Of a DNA stretch of 64,000 nucleotides, positions 5,372-51,811 are shown one piece after another. Source of the stretch: Aquificota bacterium (GTDB lineage: Bacteria > Aquificota > Aquificia > Aquificales > Aquificaceae); the NCBI GenBank assembly GCA_018771605.1, contig CP076324.1:930001-994000 (forward strand), written 5' to 3'. A program made the position numbers and the translations under genes. Numbering within the stretch: the first letter of the stretch is position 1; the number at the start of each line of letters is the position of its first letter. The notes below the pieces were generated by a model. It had not been told where the DNA came from. It ran no database searches and saw nothing but the letters and a program-made list of their open reading frames with translations.

Positions 5372-5400
5372 ATTATATATCACTTCCTTATAGAATTCAA
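5372..5400 (-). promoter_or_regulatory. Promoter of rpsP-khpA
   Basis: On the minus strand TTGAAT (5400-5395), a 17-bp spacer and TATAAT (5377-5372) form a near-consensus housekeeping promoter. It overlaps the end of copA. Confidence 0.7.
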
Positions 5401-7389
5401 TACCACACTAAGGGAAGAAAAGGCCATCATCAACCCGGCTATCTCTGGCCGTAGGTATATACCCTTATTATACAGCAAACCACCCGCTATGGGAATACCT
5501 ACGGCATTGTAAAAGAAAGCCCAAAAGAGATTTTGCCATATCCTTCTCATGGTCCTTTCTTTTATCTCAAAAAAGTCCCTTATGCCCTCTATGCCTCTGA
5601 GGAGTACTATATGGCCTACCCTTTTGGCCACATCCGTGCCAGAACCTACGGCAAAGGATAGGTCCGCCTCTGCCATAGCTGGTGCATCGTTTATACCATC
5701 CCCTACCATCCCAACCTTTAACCCCCTTTCTTTTAATTCTCTTATCTTGCTTAGCTTTTCTTCTGGCTTTACCTCGGCAAAAAACTCCCTAATGCCAAGC
5801 TCTTTTGCTATTCGCCTTGCCTTATCTTGCCTGTCTCCTGTAAGCATGATAACCTCTATGCCCTTGGACCTTAAAAACTCTACTACCTCCTTGGCACCTT
5901 TCCTTATCACATCCTCAAAGAAGAACTCGGCCAGCTTGGAACCATTTTCATACAGAGCCACTTGTCCCTCTTCTCCCCTCCTTAGAACGTATTCACCGCA
6001 TATTACGCCCACACCCACCTCCTCTTTGCATGTGTTTAAATCTATCCCTTCTAACCTTTTATCACCGCAGAACTCCCTAAGTGCCAAAGCATAAGGGTGG
6101 TTTGATACTTTTACCATATTGCATGTAAGGGCTAAAGCATCCTCCCTATAAAGCACATAGTTTACCAGCTTTGGCTTGCCCTCCGTTAGCGTGCCAGTTT
6201 TGTCCATAACCAACACCTGCACATCCTTTTCAAAAACCGATGGGTCTTTTATGAGAAGACCCTTCTTTTGAGACCTTAGCACACCCACCACTATGGCAAG
6301 AGGCACAGCTATACCAAAAGCACAAGGGCAAGAGACCACAAGCACAGCAAGGGAAAAATTAACTGCCATAGTAAGGCTACCCGTCTTTAGATACCAAAGG
6401 GCAAAGACAATTAAGGATAGGGCCACTACAAACTGCACAAAGTAGTGAGAGACTTTATCCGCAAGGCGTTGAATCTTGGGCCGTTTGCTAAGTGTTTCTT
6501 CCACAAGCTTTACCAATAGGTTTACATAGCTACCGCTAAAGGTCTTTTCCACCTTTGCCTTTGCAAACCCAGATATAACCAAGCTACCAGATATGAGCCT
6601 ATCACCTTGAGACCTTTTGACTGGCATACTCTCACCGGTTATAAGGGACTCATCCACCTCAAGAGAACCCTCAAGGACCTTACAATCCACTGGCACCATA
6701 TCGCCAGTCCTTAACACTATTACATCTCCCACAAAAACCTCTTGCAAAGACTTAAGCTCCTCCTTTCCATCCTTTAAAACTCTAACCCTTACAGTTTGTA
6801 GGCCAAAGAGGTCTCTTAGGCTTTTGAGCGCCCTGTCCTTAGCAAGCTCCTCAAGGAACTTACCCGTTTTTACAAAAGTGATCAGAAAAGCGGAGGTCTC
6901 AAAAAAAGGCTCGCCGGGTATTATACCCAAAAAGGCAAGAAGGCTATAAAGAAGGGCTGATGTGCTTCCAAGGGCTACAAGAAGGTCCATGTTCCCCACC
7001 CTTGCCTTTATAGAACTCCAAGCACCCTTATAAAAGCCATAACCACCTAAGGCCTGAACCAAGAAAGCAAGGGCAAGCTGGAAATATGGGCTGTAAGGAC
7101 TGTGCCAAAACATTAAAGCCATGATAGCTATGCTTGAAAGCCAGCAAAAGATAAGTATTTGCATATCCTTTGGCCCACCCTCTACCCTTTCCACCTTATA
7201 GCCCAAAGACTCTATAACACCTTTTATCCGCTCCACGTCAAGGAGGTCCTCATTAAAGCTCACTACCACCCTTCCAAGCTCAAAGGATACATGCACCTCT
7301 TCCACACCCTTTAACTTTTTAAGGCTTATCTCTATGGCCTTTGCACAGTTCACACAAGACATTCCAGAAACTTTTAGACTAACCCGCAT
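5380..7389 (-). CDS. copA: Copper-translocating P1B-type ATPase
   Basis: A 669-residue heavy-metal ATPase that exports copper from the cytosol. In order: one N-terminal HMA domain with metal-binding MSCVNCA; membrane helices; the actuator motif TGES; the intramembrane SCPCAFG motif that selects Cu(I); DKTGTLTEG with the phosphorylated Asp; and GDGINDAP in the nucleotide domain. The ATG at 7389 is preferred to an upstream TTG (7410) because MRVSLKVSG begins the HMA domain at once. It stands alone, divergent from ispE over 116 bp. Confidence 0.95.
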   Translation of the reverse strand: MRVSLKVSGMSCVNCAKAIEISLKKLKGVEEVHVSFELGRVVVSFNEDLLDVERIKGVIESLGYKVERVEGGPKDMQILIFCWLSSIAIMALMFWHSPYSPYFQLALAFLVQALGGYGFYKGAWSSIKARVGNMDLLVALGSTSALLYSLLAFLGIIPGEPFFETSAFLITFVKTGKFLEELAKDRALKSLRDLFGLQTVRVRVLKDGKEELKSLQEVFVGDVIVLRTGDMVPVDCKVLEGSLEVDESLITGESMPVKRSQGDRLISGSLVISGFAKAKVEKTFSGSYVNLLVKLVEETLSKRPKIQRLADKVSHYFVQFVVALSLIVFALWYLKTGSLTMAVNFSLAVLVVSCPCAFGIAVPLAIVVGVLRSQKKGLLIKDPSVFEKDVQVLVMDKTGTLTEGKPKLVNYVLYREDALALTCNMVKVSNHPYALALREFCGDKRLEGIDLNTCKEEVGVGVICGEYVLRRGEEGQVALYENGSKLAEFFFEDVIRKGAKEVVEFLRSKGIEVIMLTGDRQDKARRIAKELGIREFFAEVKPEEKLSKIRELKERGLKVGMVGDGINDAPAMAEADLSFAVGSGTDVAKRVGHIVLLRGIEGIRDFFEIKERTMRRIWQNLFWAFFYNAVGIPIAGGLLYNKGIYLRPEIAGLMMAFSSLSVVLNSIRK

Positions 7390-7492
7390 AGCTTTAAGTA
7401 ATGTATTCAAAGCATGTTAATTTCAAGAGGTTTATTTTACTTTGTTTTTTTGAGAAGAATAAAGAGATTTTATCCTTTAGCTTAGATGCTCT

Positions 7493-48260: not shown

Positions 48261-48761
48261 TTATTTACTTAATTCTCTTCTCAAGTCCCTTGTCATGGCT
48301 TCTTCATAGGTGTAGGGACATTCTTTTGGAATTGGATAGTCCTTCGGGTCCTCTCCAACCTTTGCAAGCCATTTCATTAGTCTAAGAGAGGCCTCCTTCC
48401 ATGCGGAATTAAATTCCTTGGGTAGTTTGACTCGTAAGCTTGGATGTTTTTCAAAAAGGTATTCTATCTCTTTCCTTGCAAGCTCTATGGTAATTACCCA
48501 GCTAAGTCCTCCCTTTTCTTTTCCAGCTTTGGTCAAACCTCTAAAGTGGTCCCATTTGTATAGGTGTTCCAAAATCACCGCCAGATGGCTTATACAGCTT
48601 TCAAGATGTCTTAGCCCCATATCCTCTATCTCCTCCAATAGATTCTCCCAGTCTACCAAGTCATAGGCCTTTTCTCTCAGGAGTTCTAAGTTTTTCTCCA
48701 CCCAAAGAGGAAAATCCTTCTCATAAAGCTCTTTTAACTCTTCCTTTGATATGGTCCTCAT
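48261..48761 (-). CDS. DUF29 family protein (copy 3)
   Basis: A 166-residue DUF29 protein, second of a tandem pair. Its first 90 residues are nearly identical to copy 2 upstream (differences such as SKEE/GKEE and LYEKD/LYHKD) while the rest has diverged strongly (WVITIELARKEIEYLFEKHP against WIRSVENARKRIGILFKRYP). The ATG overlaps the stop of copy 2 (ATGA). Family function unknown. Confidence 0.9.
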   Translation of the reverse strand: MRTISKEELKELYEKDFPLWVEKNLELLREKAYDLVDWENLLEEIEDMGLRHLESCISHLAVILEHLYKWDHFRGLTKAGKEKGGLSWVITIELARKEIEYLFEKHPSLRVKLPKEFNSAWKEASLRLMKWLAKVGEDPKDYPIPKECPYTYEEAMTRDLRRELSK

Positions 48762-49258
48762 CTCTTTATCTCCTTCCTTAAATCTCTTGTCATGGCTTCT
48801 TCATAGGTATATGGGCATTTTTCCGGAATATGGTATTGGTCTGGGTCTTCTCCGATTTTGTCAAGCCATTCCTGTAATCTGATGACTGCTTCCTCCCATG
48901 CATAATCAAGCTCCGGCTTTAGCTTTGTTCTTAGGCTCGGGTATCTCTTAAAGAGAATTCCTATTCTCTTTCTCGCGTTTTCTACGCTTCTTATCCAAGA
49001 TAGTCCGCCCTTTTCCTCTCCAGCTTTTGTTAAACCTCTAAAGTGGTCCCATTTGTAAAGATGCTCTAAAATCACCGCCAGATGGCTTATACAGCTTTCA
49101 AGATGTCTTAGGCCCATATCTTCTATTTCCTCCAGAAGGTTTTCCCAGTCTACCAAGTCATAGGCCTTTTCTCTAAGGAGTTCTAAGTTTTTTTCCACCC
49201 AAAGGGGAAAGTCCTTATGGTAAAGTTCTTTTAATTCCTCCTTGCCTATGGTCCTCAT
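48758..49258 (-). CDS. DUF29 family protein (copy 2)
   Basis: A 166-residue DUF29 protein with KDFPLWVEKNLELLREKAYD and EEIEDMGLRHLESCISHLAV, and the C-terminal DPDQYHIPEKCPYTYEEAM shared with copy 1 at 27636. The promoter is nearly the same as for copy 1: TATATT, a 7-nt spacer TATCCCT, then ATG. Divergent from the HTH/NosL-like regulator. Confidence 0.9.
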   Translation of the reverse strand: MRTIGKEELKELYHKDFPLWVEKNLELLREKAYDLVDWENLLEEIEDMGLRHLESCISHLAVILEHLYKWDHFRGLTKAGEEKGGLSWIRSVENARKRIGILFKRYPSLRTKLKPELDYAWEEAVIRLQEWLDKIGEDPDQYHIPEKCPYTYEEAMTRDLRKEIKR

Positions 49259-49271: not shown

Positions 49272-49332
49272 AGAAGTGTTAATTTTTTTAGAACAGTTAT
49301 TGTTTTTTACCGTCCTTTTCCTCTTCTGGGAT

Positions 49333-49338
49333 TATAAT
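49333..49338 (+). promoter_or_regulatory. -10 box of the HTH/NosL-like gene, leaderless type
   Basis: TATAAT ends 6 nt before ATG 49345 and no ribosome binding site is present. Confidence 0.5.
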
Positions 49339-49344
49339 TTTAAC

Positions 49345-49920
49345 ATGGACAGAAAGGAACGGATAGTGGAGCTAATAGCTCAAGGCTATAGGAATGTAAA
49401 GTCCTTGGCCCAATACTTTGGCGTCTCCCTTATGACCATATACAGGGATGTGAGGGAGCTTGAAAAGGAAGGAAGGATTGTAAGAAAGCATGGGGAACTG
49501 CTTTTAAGAGAGGAGGCGGGAGATCTTGTAGAGGAATCTCTTCCCACATGTGCTTATTGCACCAAGCCCATAGAAAAGAGGCTTGAGTTTACATATAGGC
49601 TGAAGAAAGGAAGGATTGTAAGGGCATGCTGTGCCCACTGTGGCCTACTCCTTTACAAAAACATAAAAGAGGAAGATATAGAGTCTTGCATGACTTGGGA
49701 TTTTATAAACTGTAAGCCTCTTAGCTGTTTTTCAGCTTGGTATGTGGTAGGCTCTACCGCTTTGCCTTGCTGTTCTCCATCCGCCATTGCCTTTGCTAGC
49801 AAAGAAGATGCGGAGAAGTTTGCAAAGGGCTTTGGGGGAGTGGTGCTCAACTTTGAAAAAGCCGTAGAAGGCATTGAGCAACTTATGAAAAGAGGAACAC
49901 CGGTTAAAATGAACCTATAA
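49345..49920 (+). CDS. HTH regulator fused to Cys-rich NosL-like domain
   Basis: A 191-residue protein. Residues 1-55 are a DeoR-type winged HTH (VKSLAQYFGVSLMTIYRDVRELEKEG). The rest is Cys-rich: TCAYC, RACCAHC, ESCMTW, NCKPLSC and LPCCSPS, ending with AIAFASKEDAEKFAKGFGG and VVLNFEKAVEGI, a pattern like the copper-binding NosL family. It may be a metal or redox sensor; copper is a guess by analogy. ATG 49345 is chosen over the earlier open frame because the HTH starts there and a -10 box sits 6 nt before it. It precedes the NuoG-like gene by 10 bp. Confidence 0.75.
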   Translation: MDRKERIVELIAQGYRNVKSLAQYFGVSLMTIYRDVRELEKEGRIVRKHGELLLREEAGDLVEESLPTCAYCTKPIEKRLEFTYRLKKGRIVRACCAHCGLLLYKNIKEEDIESCMTWDFINCKPLSCFSAWYVVGSTALPCCSPSAIAFASKEDAEKFAKGFGGVVLNFEKAVEGIEQLMKRGTPVKMNL

Positions 49921-49930
49921 GGAGGTAAAG

Positions 49931-51811
49931 ATGAAAAAGGTAAAGATATACGTAGATGGAATAGAGTATGAGGTGGAAAAGAACAAGCCCTTGCTACAGA
50001 GCCTTCTTGACCTTGGCATACAGGTGCCTTACTTTTGCTACCATCCTCGCCTCAAGATAATAGGTGCCTGTAGGATGTGCATAGTCTTTAACGAAAAGAC
50101 TGGAAGGCTTATGACCTCTTGCAACGCCTATCCAGAGGAGGGCATGTCCATATCCACCAAGCACCCCCTTGTGGTAGAAAACCAAAAGTATCTTCTGCAG
50201 GCCTTTATGACAAGGCATCCCCTTGACTGTCCCATATGCGATAAGGCTGGAGAGTGCGACCTACAAAACTACGGAGCCCTTTTTGGACCACAAAGGCAAA
50301 TAGTCCCTGTCTCAGCCCTTGAAAAGGAAAGGCACCAGCTTGATTGGGAAAGCGATTTTCTTGAGTATTACTCCAACAGATGCGTGGTTTGTTATAGATG
50401 CACAAGGGCCTGCGATGATGTGGTGGGAGCCCATGCCTTGTATGTGGAAGAGAGGGGCTTTCAGGCCAACATAGCACCCACCATAAGGCCCATGGATACC
50501 TCCACCTGCGAGATGTGCGGTATATGCGTCCATGTATGCCCAGTTGGTGCCATAATCTCCAAGCCCTTTAAGTATTGGACAAGGAGCTGGCTACTTAAGA
50601 AAGGGAAAACTATATGCAATCTCTGCCCTGTGGGCTGTGAGGTCCAGATTGAATATGGAGTGGGAGACTGGAAGTCAAAGGATAAGGTTTATAGAACAAA
50701 GCCCACCGACGAATTAAACGTATGCGCCAAGGCCTTCTTTGGCTACGATGTACTAAACTACGAAAGGCTTAGAACTCCAAAGATGTTTGGAAAGGAGGAA
50801 ACGAGGGGCAACTTGGCCAACTACCTCTCCATGTTGTTAAAGAGAGACCCAGAGAACACACTCCTTGTGCTATCCTCCTATATGAGCAACGAAGACTACA
50901 GCCTTATAAAAGAGGTAGTTAAAAGGACTGGCGCAATGGTAAGCACTCCCTTGAGCCTTGACCTTTTGCCCTTCCTATCTTCTTACGGAGAGTATGAAGG
51001 CCTAAGCATAAAGGACTTGGAAGATGCAGACTTTTACGTGTTTATAGGCGAGGACATCACCTCCACTGCGCCCGTTCTTTCTTACTACACAAAGAAGAAG
51101 GTCTATAAGATAGGAAAGGTGCAAAGAGACTCAAAGCTAAAGCCTGTGATGATTGAAAAAGAGGAGCTTTCCAAGCTGGAAGGCAAAGGTGTAATAGTCT
51201 TCAATGCGGTGGGAATGAAGGCCGAAGAGGCAAGCCAATGGGGGAAGTATCTAAAGGACCTTTGCAAGGAAAAGGGCTTTGGGCTTGTGCTTCTTCACGA
51301 TGGCAACTTTATGGGCCTAATAAGGCATATACCCATAGATTGGATCTCCAGCCTGCCAGAGGCATTAAATAGGGTAAAGAACCTTATTATCTTTGGAGAG
51401 GACCTACTGGACTACATGAGCATAGAAGAGGTGGAAAAGCTCTTTGAAAAGGCGGAGCATACTGTGGCCTTTTCTCCCTTTGAGGATGGCATAGCCCAGC
51501 TGGCGCACATAAGGGTGCCCATGGACCTCTTTGGTGAGATAGAAGGCACTTACCATACCCTTATGGGTGAAAAGAAGGCAAAGAGAGTTCTGCACAAGTT
51601 CTTTGACCACACGGACCTTTTAAGGAACATCCTTGAGAGCCTGCCGGCTGAAGAAAAAACTCCTGCGGTCCTAAAGGGTGGGTCCTTTGAAGGCAAAAGG
51701 TTTGTGCATCTTTATAGGAGCAACTGGATAACCAAGAGGAGCGAAAACCTCACAAGGCTTTATGAGAAGAACACAGCCCTTGAGGAGGCCATAAGATTGG
51801 GAAGCTCATAA
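49931..51811 (+). CDS. NuoG-like iron-sulfur protein, NADH dehydrogenase or hydrogenase subunit
   Basis: A 626-residue protein. It carries a 2Fe-2S ferredoxin fold (Cys36, 47, 50, 64), a His-Cys3 4Fe-4S site (His96, Cys100, 103, 109), two 4Fe-4S ferredoxin sites (Cys151/154/157/161 and 193/196/199/203) and a further C-X2-C-X3-C-X28-C site (229, 232, 236, 265) as in the N5 cluster of NuoG. The later half is a shortened molybdopterin-oxidoreductase remnant. E. coli NuoG has about 900 residues. No other nuo genes are adjacent, so it might instead serve a different NAD(P)-linked complex. GGAGGT lies 6 nt before the ATG. Confidence 0.85.
   Translation: MKKVKIYVDGIEYEVEKNKPLLQSLLDLGIQVPYFCYHPRLKIIGACRMCIVFNEKTGRLMTSCNAYPEEGMSISTKHPLVVENQKYLLQAFMTRHPLDCPICDKAGECDLQNYGALFGPQRQIVPVSALEKERHQLDWESDFLEYYSNRCVVCYRCTRACDDVVGAHALYVEERGFQANIAPTIRPMDTSTCEMCGICVHVCPVGAIISKPFKYWTRSWLLKKGKTICNLCPVGCEVQIEYGVGDWKSKDKVYRTKPTDELNVCAKAFFGYDVLNYERLRTPKMFGKEETRGNLANYLSMLLKRDPENTLLVLSSYMSNEDYSLIKEVVKRTGAMVSTPLSLDLLPFLSSYGEYEGLSIKDLEDADFYVFIGEDITSTAPVLSYYTKKKVYKIGKVQRDSKLKPVMIEKEELSKLEGKGVIVFNAVGMKAEEASQWGKYLKDLCKEKGFGLVLLHDGNFMGLIRHIPIDWISSLPEALNRVKNLIIFGEDLLDYMSIEEVEKLFEKAEHTVAFSPFEDGIAQLAHIRVPMDLFGEIEGTYHTLMGEKKAKRVLHKFFDHTDLLRNILESLPAEEKTPAVLKGGSFEGKRFVHLYRSNWITKRSENLTRLYEKNTALEEAIRLGSS

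Follow-up and report, generated by a model that had tools for sequence, protein, structure and literature searches.

A DeoR-type helix-turn-helix protein with a NosL-fold sensor domain, conserved in two families of Aquificota, as a candidate copper-responsive regulator

The HTH-NosL gene and its immediate surroundings

The window analyzed here (the whole stretch of DNA, 64,000 nucleotides from an Aquificota bacterium of the family Aquificaceae; contig CP076324.1, positions 930,001 to 994,000 of the forward strand) contains, at positions 49345 to 49920 of the plus strand, an open reading frame of 191 amino acids, referred to here as HTH-NosL. The open frame reaches upstream to a GTG at 49276; the ATG at 49345 agrees as a start with the homologues, which align from MDRKE and in some cases use start codons other than ATG. 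Directly before this ATG lies a −10 box, TATAATTTTAAC (49333 to 49344, plus strand). As originally predicted, the start has the look of a leaderless one: TATAATTTTAA/GC touches the ATG in 10 of the 12 genomes of the genus, the exceptions being G039, in which it lies 4 bases further upstream, and G043, which is without it. No good −35 element was seen by eye for this gene, and the arrangement fits a leaderless transcript.

The 10-bp gap (49921 to 49930) that had been reported ahead of a NuoG-like gene was confirmed. This gene (49931 to 51811, plus strand; TIGR01973 at 273.6 bits, under its cutoff of 470) is possibly cotranscribed with HTH-NosL. Also present, as described, is a divergent pair of DUF29 genes at 48758 to 49258 and 48261 to 48761, both on the minus strand, with Pfam E values of 1.9e-32 and 1.3e-31; neither was judged part of the system. 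The two genes (48261 to 49258 together) overlap by 4 bp, are very similar by eye, and possibly represent a recent duplication, the pair not having been seen beside homologues.

Domain architecture and fold

The N-terminal part of the protein matches the DeoR-type winged helix-turn-helix (Pfam HTH_DeoR; residues 3 to 51, positions 49351 to 49497, plus strand; E value of 5.7e-11; 42.4 bits against a cutoff of 21), in agreement with the original prediction of such a domain joined to a cysteine region. In a full-length AlphaFold2 model built from 18 homologues (pLDDT of 85), helices occupy residues 3 to 12, 18 to 25, and 29 to 41, with a wing at residues 45 to 54. No export signal or lipobox is visible, the N terminus being taken up by the helix-turn-helix; the regulator should therefore be cytosolic.

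The profile search against NosL proposed at the outset retrieved the family (PF05573) over residues 130 to 172 (E value of 1.5e-7; 32.2 bits, over the cutoff of 24), so that the reported NosL likeness stood; its restriction to a segment at the end of the protein did not. Residues 64 to 180 of the model (49534 to 49884, plus strand) align with NosL (PDB entry 7og7) at a Z score of 14.4 (114 aligned residues, 2.3 Å), and since this alignment covers residues 64 to 180, the NosL part spans the entire cysteine region rather than the tail alone. For NosL chains from the NosDFYL complex, the full-length model gave Z values of 13.6 to 12.9. When the sensor domain was modeled alone (pLDDT of 88, pTM of 0.82), Z scores were 14.3 to 8.0 for NosL, 7.9 to 5.2 for MerB, and at most 4.1 for unrelated structures, and the family profile retrieved solved NosL proteins from the PDB sequences at E values of 1.9e-4 to 1.3e-3. 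Taken together, the fold comparisons and the family profile identify the cysteine region as the first half of the NosL fold and not as a separate domain. In the model, the C-terminal half is a complete NosL fold; a match to an unrelated fold, named in advance as an outcome that would speak against the prediction, did not occur. A zinc ribbon alone, to which weak L24e matches had pointed, was dropped because NosL scores far higher.

According to PMC4999995, the NosL/MerB fold consists of two TRASH-type treble clefs joined to each other, and in MerB the ancestral metal site has become catalytic. It is extremely improbable that HTH-NosL is a MerB-like protein that cleaves organomercurials or binds mercury, with the winged helix kept and no gene regulated. 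Such a role would draw on the Z scores of the sensor domain, on five Foldseek rows in which the whole model matches MerB chains (E values of 1.8e-4 to 7.8e-4 over ∼200 columns), and on vicinal cysteines at about the same place. The catalytic residues of MerB are C96, D99, and C159; its vicinal cysteines are C159 and C160, and C142-C143 of HTH-NosL may sit in a comparable loop. Against this, the whole-length root mean square deviation of the model to MerB is ∼15 Å, which means that the domains are arranged differently; no Pfam MerB match stood among the best 25 of 26 families, and the family profile gave no MerB match in the PDB sequences up to an E value of 10. The helix-turn-helix is moreover conserved as in a working DNA binder, residues S28, Y33, and R34 being invariant in 81 homologues.

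Cysteines and candidate metal ligands

Rather than the "twelve or so" cysteines first reported, ten were counted, at residues 69, 72, 95, 96, 99, 115, 123, 128, 142, and 143. Among the 26 residues that are invariant across the 81 aligned homologues are seven of these cysteines (C69, C72, C95, C96, C99, C142, and C143) together with H98. Homologues devoid of cysteines, the second outcome named in advance as contrary, were not found, all seven being kept in 81 of 81. The other three are lineage specific: C115 occurs in 23, C123 in 32, and C128 in 22 of the 81.

The TRASH spacing motif is C-x19-22-C-x3-C. In HTH-NosL, C69, C72, C95, and C99 have the spacing of a treble clef, and the TRASH-type pattern C-x2-C-x22-C-x3-C is complete; the segment C69-x2-C72-x22-C95-C96-x-H98-C99 (49549 to 49641, plus strand; invariant in 81/81) is therefore listed as a TRASH-type treble clef and a candidate metal site. 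The part C72-x22-C95-x3-C99 is alike in the window protein and in a plasmid-borne homologue described below, and it satisfies the TRASH spacing in both. Farther along, the segment P141-C142-C143-S-P145 (49765 to 49779, plus strand), with C142, C143, and P145 invariant in the 81 homologues, replaces the G-x-M-G loop of NosL, and HMMER aligns the conserved Met of NosL with C143.

PMC6530538 names two elements as the copper ligands of NosL, a CxM motif and one further conserved Met. Both the CxM and the PMG ligands are absent here: C72-T-K stands in place of CxM, and C143 lies opposite the second Met. Because both conserved Met residues are replaced, the Cu(I) binding of NosL, on which the original prediction relied, is not directly transferable to HTH-NosL. 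Judged from the alignment, the regulator would offer more thiol ligands than NosL, and C142-C143 may form a joint site with C95, C96, and C99.

Distribution and descent

A search of 136 Aquificota genomes listed 97 with the gene, of which one (G089) encodes plain NosL; HTH-NosL was accordingly counted in 96/136. These genomes belong to the window's own family (57 of 64) and to a second family, f2 (39 of 41), and none of the other families of the phylum represented among the 136 genomes carries the gene. Eighty-one of the 96 homologues were fetched and aligned, and 15 remained outside the alignment, including those of G026 and G053, which have an internal stop. In a tree of the 81 and the plasmid row, the two families stand apart and most genera fall on one side of a branch, so that the gene looks vertically inherited; bootstrap values were unsettled, and it is unsure where g7, g6, and the plasmid homologue belong. 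The contig RFFP01000003.1 is labeled Acidobacteria; G039 falls within the genus of the window.

Beyond Aquificota, the only relatives were two plasmid records that are identical over the homologue; there was no phage match, and none on viral contigs. The plasmid homologue (190 amino acids; E value of 1e-25 over its full length) keeps the CxxC, CCxHC, and CC groups, and both of its Pfam domains score above cutoff (NosL at 25.5 bits). The stretch of plasmid CP031730.1 concerned (279224 to 297766) is labeled Stenotrophomonas rhizophila and has a G+C content of 32 to 36%. The G+C content of Stenotrophomonas is far from this range, and we therefore distrust the label, which may reflect contamination or misassignment. 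Among the papers listed from the open-license literature, none dealt with a DeoR-NosL regulator.

Gene neighborhoods across the homologues

Neighborhoods were surveyed at 81 loci, with three genes on each side. No neighbor is common to all 81, and the regulator would consequently act at a distance or have several lineage-specific jobs; for the same reason, the NuoG-like and DUF29 genes are poor guides to function. A NuoG-like gene is near in 15 of the 81 loci, namely, in all 12 of genus g1, in 3 of the 5 of g8, and in none of the other 64. In g1 it lies downstream, directly in four loci and after one GGDEF-type open reading frame in eight, and in five loci NrdD-type and radical-SAM (NrdG-like) genes then follow. 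Both the HTH-NosL gene and the NuoG-like gene are near-universal in the two families. At the 80 loci outside the window, the DUF29 pair was never seen next to HTH-NosL. Of the two targets originally proposed, the DUF29 pair was thus not supported, and control of the electron-transfer gene was weakly supported, its adjacency being limited to g1 and g8; as general targets, both were rejected.

In relatives (L080, L075, L076, L079, and L082), the row reads HTH-NosL, GGDEF, NuoG-like, NrdD-type, and radical SAM activase, and thereby joins a complex-I-like electron input module to an anaerobic ribonucleotide reductase; this row is not found here in the window's genome.

The linkage to the NuoG-like gene, with the five loci that continue into NrdD-type and radical-SAM genes, bears on whether the treble clef might hold structural zinc only, with the protein acting on its own operon (NuoG-like and, in relatives, GGDEF and nrdD-nrdG) as a repressor, either constitutive or autoregulatory. 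We consider this distinctly unlikely, as the linkage is confined to g1 and g8 and the invariant C96, H98, C142, and C143 exceed what one structural site needs.

Other lineages have other neighbors. All four g4 loci have a lipoprotein-like gene that overlaps HTH-NosL by 4 bp. In f2, hisB lies upstream in all 26 loci, and a TusA gene is convergent downstream in 16 of them. HTH-NosL is divergent from a tusA-dsrE2-dsrE-sHdr sulfur-oxidation cluster at 12 of the 14 loci of g3 and at all 3 of g10. The tusA gene itself was called in 13 of these, with 110 to 153 bp separating it from HTH-NosL; in two g3 loci, tusA is overlapped by a spurious open reading frame, and the cluster was recognized from the next genes.

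Because 15 loci adjoin sHdr genes, the main rival to copper sensing is a sensor of sulfane sulfur (persulfide) or thiol redox state that controls cytoplasmic sulfur oxidation. Here C142-C143 or the CxxC would form sulfur bridges like those of the SoxR/sHdrR cysteines and so free the sHdr-tusA-dsrE operon. The convergent TusA genes of f2 point the same way, sHdr is present in 11 of the 11 genera of the window's family, and sulfane-sulfur repressors of sHdr genes are described from elsewhere in PMC12423496. Even so, this role is unlikely on balance: f2 is without sHdr at the cutoff used, yet keeps the regulator in 39 of its 41 genomes; the sHdr genes of the window's genome are found at another place (genome position 540853), without the HTH-NosL gene; and the conserved tusA promoter elements are still present in g11, in which the regulator gene does not adjoin tusA. 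In addition, a treble clef with all four cysteines would suggest metal binding more than a dithiol switch, and this genome has a better candidate for such a sensor in a three-cysteine protein of the ArsR type, encoded beside thioredoxin. The conserved elements between HTH-NosL and tusA in g3 and g10 were rejected as an HTH-NosL operator because they travel with tusA in g11.

Two side observations concern sulfur oxidation in the window's genome. The tusA-dsrE-sHdr operon (L174, genome positions 538700 to 547000; also L175 to L193) has a promoter TTATAAT ... GATAATCT before AGGAGG that is conserved in many Aquificaceae. The ArsR-type protein, a candidate sulfane-sulfur sensor, is encoded at positions 1408 to 1698 of L280 (minus strand), directly upstream of thioredoxin.

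Copper context and regulator inventory

In two cases the homologue heads a row of genes with a link to copper. In G049, the one genome of g7, HTH-NosL is followed by a CDF gene (19-bp overlap) and then by a copper ATPase (TIGR01511 at 429 bits against a cutoff of 397). The plasmid homologue heads an operon-like row whose other products are a DsbD_2 protein and a membrane protein with a cupredoxin domain, surrounded by copC, copD, cadA, arsB, and arsC, and an inverted repeat, ATGTTATA-N11-TATAACAT, lies just upstream of its ribosome-binding site. These copper-operon homologues have long branches (1.47 and 2.3 to 2.85 changes per column) and may have diverged in function. Counting against copper, the only one of the 81 loci at which a copper gene was recognized beside HTH-NosL is that of G049, and the window copy is not beside one.

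The window does encode, at a distance, a copA-type copper-translocating P-type ATPase (5380 to 7389, minus strand; TIGR01511 at 508 bits, cutoff of 397), the predicted target; three heavy-metal ATPases score over cutoff in the genome as a whole. The genome has two other NosL matches. At genome position 1250124 (L020), a NosL-like exported protein lies within a metal-efflux cluster, together with a copper-type P-ATPase and small proteins rich in His and Met.

The inventory of known metalloregulators was confined to CsoR, MerR, and ArsR. CsoR was found in none of the 14 genomes of the window's genus and in 23 of the 136 genomes of the phylum. The two MerR matches of the window's genome lie, by eye, beside dnaJ and in a resolvase-like open reading frame. 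Two ArsR proteins score over cutoff, one beside an arsenite-permease-like open reading frame and the other beside thioredoxin (by eye); these two could be alternative metal sensors of this genome.

Promoter motifs

Upstream regions of copA were collected from the 48 Aquificaceae genomes with a copA match, with copA start positions derived from the protein match; the count of 46 regions is without G020, whose match is partial, and G049, in which copA lies within the operon. Of these 46, 29 have an exact TTAACA between −36 and −29: 8/12 in g1, 3/4 in g2, 7/12 in g3, 2/4 in g4, 4/5 in g8, 3/3 in g10, 2/2 in g11, 0/1 in g9, and 0/3 in g5, whose regions may be misplaced since the match there begins at query residue 11. 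In the window, the corresponding sequence, TTGAAATTAACA (7415 to 7426, minus strand), is a candidate operator overlapping the −35 element. The pattern TTGAA-N0-2-TTAACA has six matches in the window's genome, of which only the copA site is intergenic. The copA promoter motif TTGAA(A)TTAACA is conserved in most Aquificaceae genera tested.

At the start of the HTH-NosL gene, TTTAACATG is similar to this copA promoter motif. A matrix built from copA regions only gave median scores at the HTH-NosL start of 11.2 in g1 and 11.0 in g8; the 99th percentile of 77 promoter-type controls was 10.1. With ten genera combined by Fisher's method, comparison with dinucleotide shuffles gave a P value of 0.0012, and comparison with the 77 controls gave one of 0.0004. 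The test was confined to the window's family; the genera behind the likeness are g1, g8, and g9, whereas g2, g4, g5, g6, and most of g3 show it weakly or not at all. Because it was noticed by eye before testing (and is thus exploratory), because the genera are not fully independent, and because it is missing in several of them, we regard the promoter similarity as a lead rather than as proof.

A single palindrome was also considered as the operator. Exact GTTAA-N0-5-TTAAC occurs at the HTH-NosL start in 5 of 80 cases compared to 0 of 641 neighbor genes, a point in favor of the autoregulatory repressor considered above; with at most one mismatch, GTTAA-N-TTAAC occurs in 11/80 compared to 16/641 controls. 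Across the window's genome there are 7 palindromic sites versus 1 for a control pattern, none of them at the HTH-NosL gene, and the related pattern is not overrepresented in the window. GTTAA-N-TTAAC was therefore reduced to a hint.

Proposed model and significance

A role as a metal or redox sensor is likely, and in this the original prediction is supported. On domain content, the family is one of putative HTH-TRASH metalloregulators with a NosL sensor, in an architecture that parallels MerB. More specifically, we give a probability of about one half to HTH-NosL being a Cu(I)-sensing one-component transcription factor that derepresses copA and its own gene. In this model, the protein would act in the cytosol, the DeoR-type winged helix binding DNA as expected from its family, and the NosL fold of two fused TRASH-type treble clefs would serve as the sensor. 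The first treble clef (C69, C72, C95, and C99, with C96 and H98 alongside) has a full cysteine set, and the vicinal pair C142-C143 occupies the loop of the conserved Met of NosL. The thiolates are predicted to bind Cu(I) or, less probably, another soft metal; metal loading would then free the protein from DNA, and its release from a putative site at the copA promoter and from its own would derepress copper export and the regulator gene, in a mode of action likened to that of archaeal CopR. We regard it as quite doubtful that this winged-helix and NosL-fold architecture, as a vertically inherited soft-metal-sensing factor, represents the type of ancestor from which MerB arose. On that reading, the Aquificales family, having all the treble-clef cysteines and, in the loop beside the ancestral metal site, a vicinal cysteine pair, would be a living intermediate among TRASH zinc fingers, NosL, and MerB.

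Copper control is unassigned in most genomes of the heat-loving Aquificales, a gap that would be closed by a regulator that is near-universal and senses through a NosL domain. If the copper model is true, HTH-TRASH sensing of the kind seen in archaeal CopR would also be a bacterial trait, in a form whose treble clef is duplicated, and a soluble protein would be at hand for asking how one fold can be a chaperone (NosL), an enzyme (MerB), and a switch. The operator is predicted to the base level and the ligands to the residue level.

Comparison with known systems

HTH-NosL shares with NosL (PF05573; PDB entries 7og7, 7osf, and 2hpu) the whole C-terminal fold, the CxxC at the first knuckle, the AWYVVGS hairpin, and the DAExF..GG helix. 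Unlike NosL, it has a helix-turn-helix in front and no export signal or lipobox; CxM is changed to CxK and G-x-M-G to PCCSP, and an extra CCxHC stands at the first helix.

MerB carries a winged helix in front, and this likeness is supported by the whole-length Foldseek matches. The duplicated TRASH treble clefs are a further shared feature, as set out for MerB in PMC4999995. In contrast to HTH-NosL, MerB is an enzyme and not a regulator, arranges its domains differently, and has no sequence-level match to the family.

With the DeoR/GlpR repressors, HTH-NosL has the N-terminal helix-turn-helix in common, but it lacks their sugar-phosphate sensor domain, the C-terminal half being NosL, and it misses the DeoR NCBIfam equivalog cutoffs by far (37 bits versus 260). 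With SoxR/sHdrR, it shares the possibility of cysteine-based sensing and, in some genera, adjacent sHdr genes; those regulators, as described in PMC12423496, are of the ArsR type with two sensing cysteines, compared to the seven invariant cysteines here.

The system to which we liken its action is that of archaeal CopR/CopT (Pyrococcus, Thermococcus, and Sulfolobus), which likewise combines a helix-turn-helix with a TRASH-type domain, has the C-x22-C-x3-C spacing, and parallels the copper sensing proposed here. PMC7830388 describes CopR as coupling a helix-turn-helix to a TRASH domain and as responsive to Cu and Ag, and compares it with Lrp, whereas the helix-turn-helix of HTH-NosL is of the DeoR type. 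HTH-NosL differs further in having two fused treble clefs instead of one and no His-rich tail, and it is bacterial and mostly not beside copA (G049 only, 1 of 81 loci).
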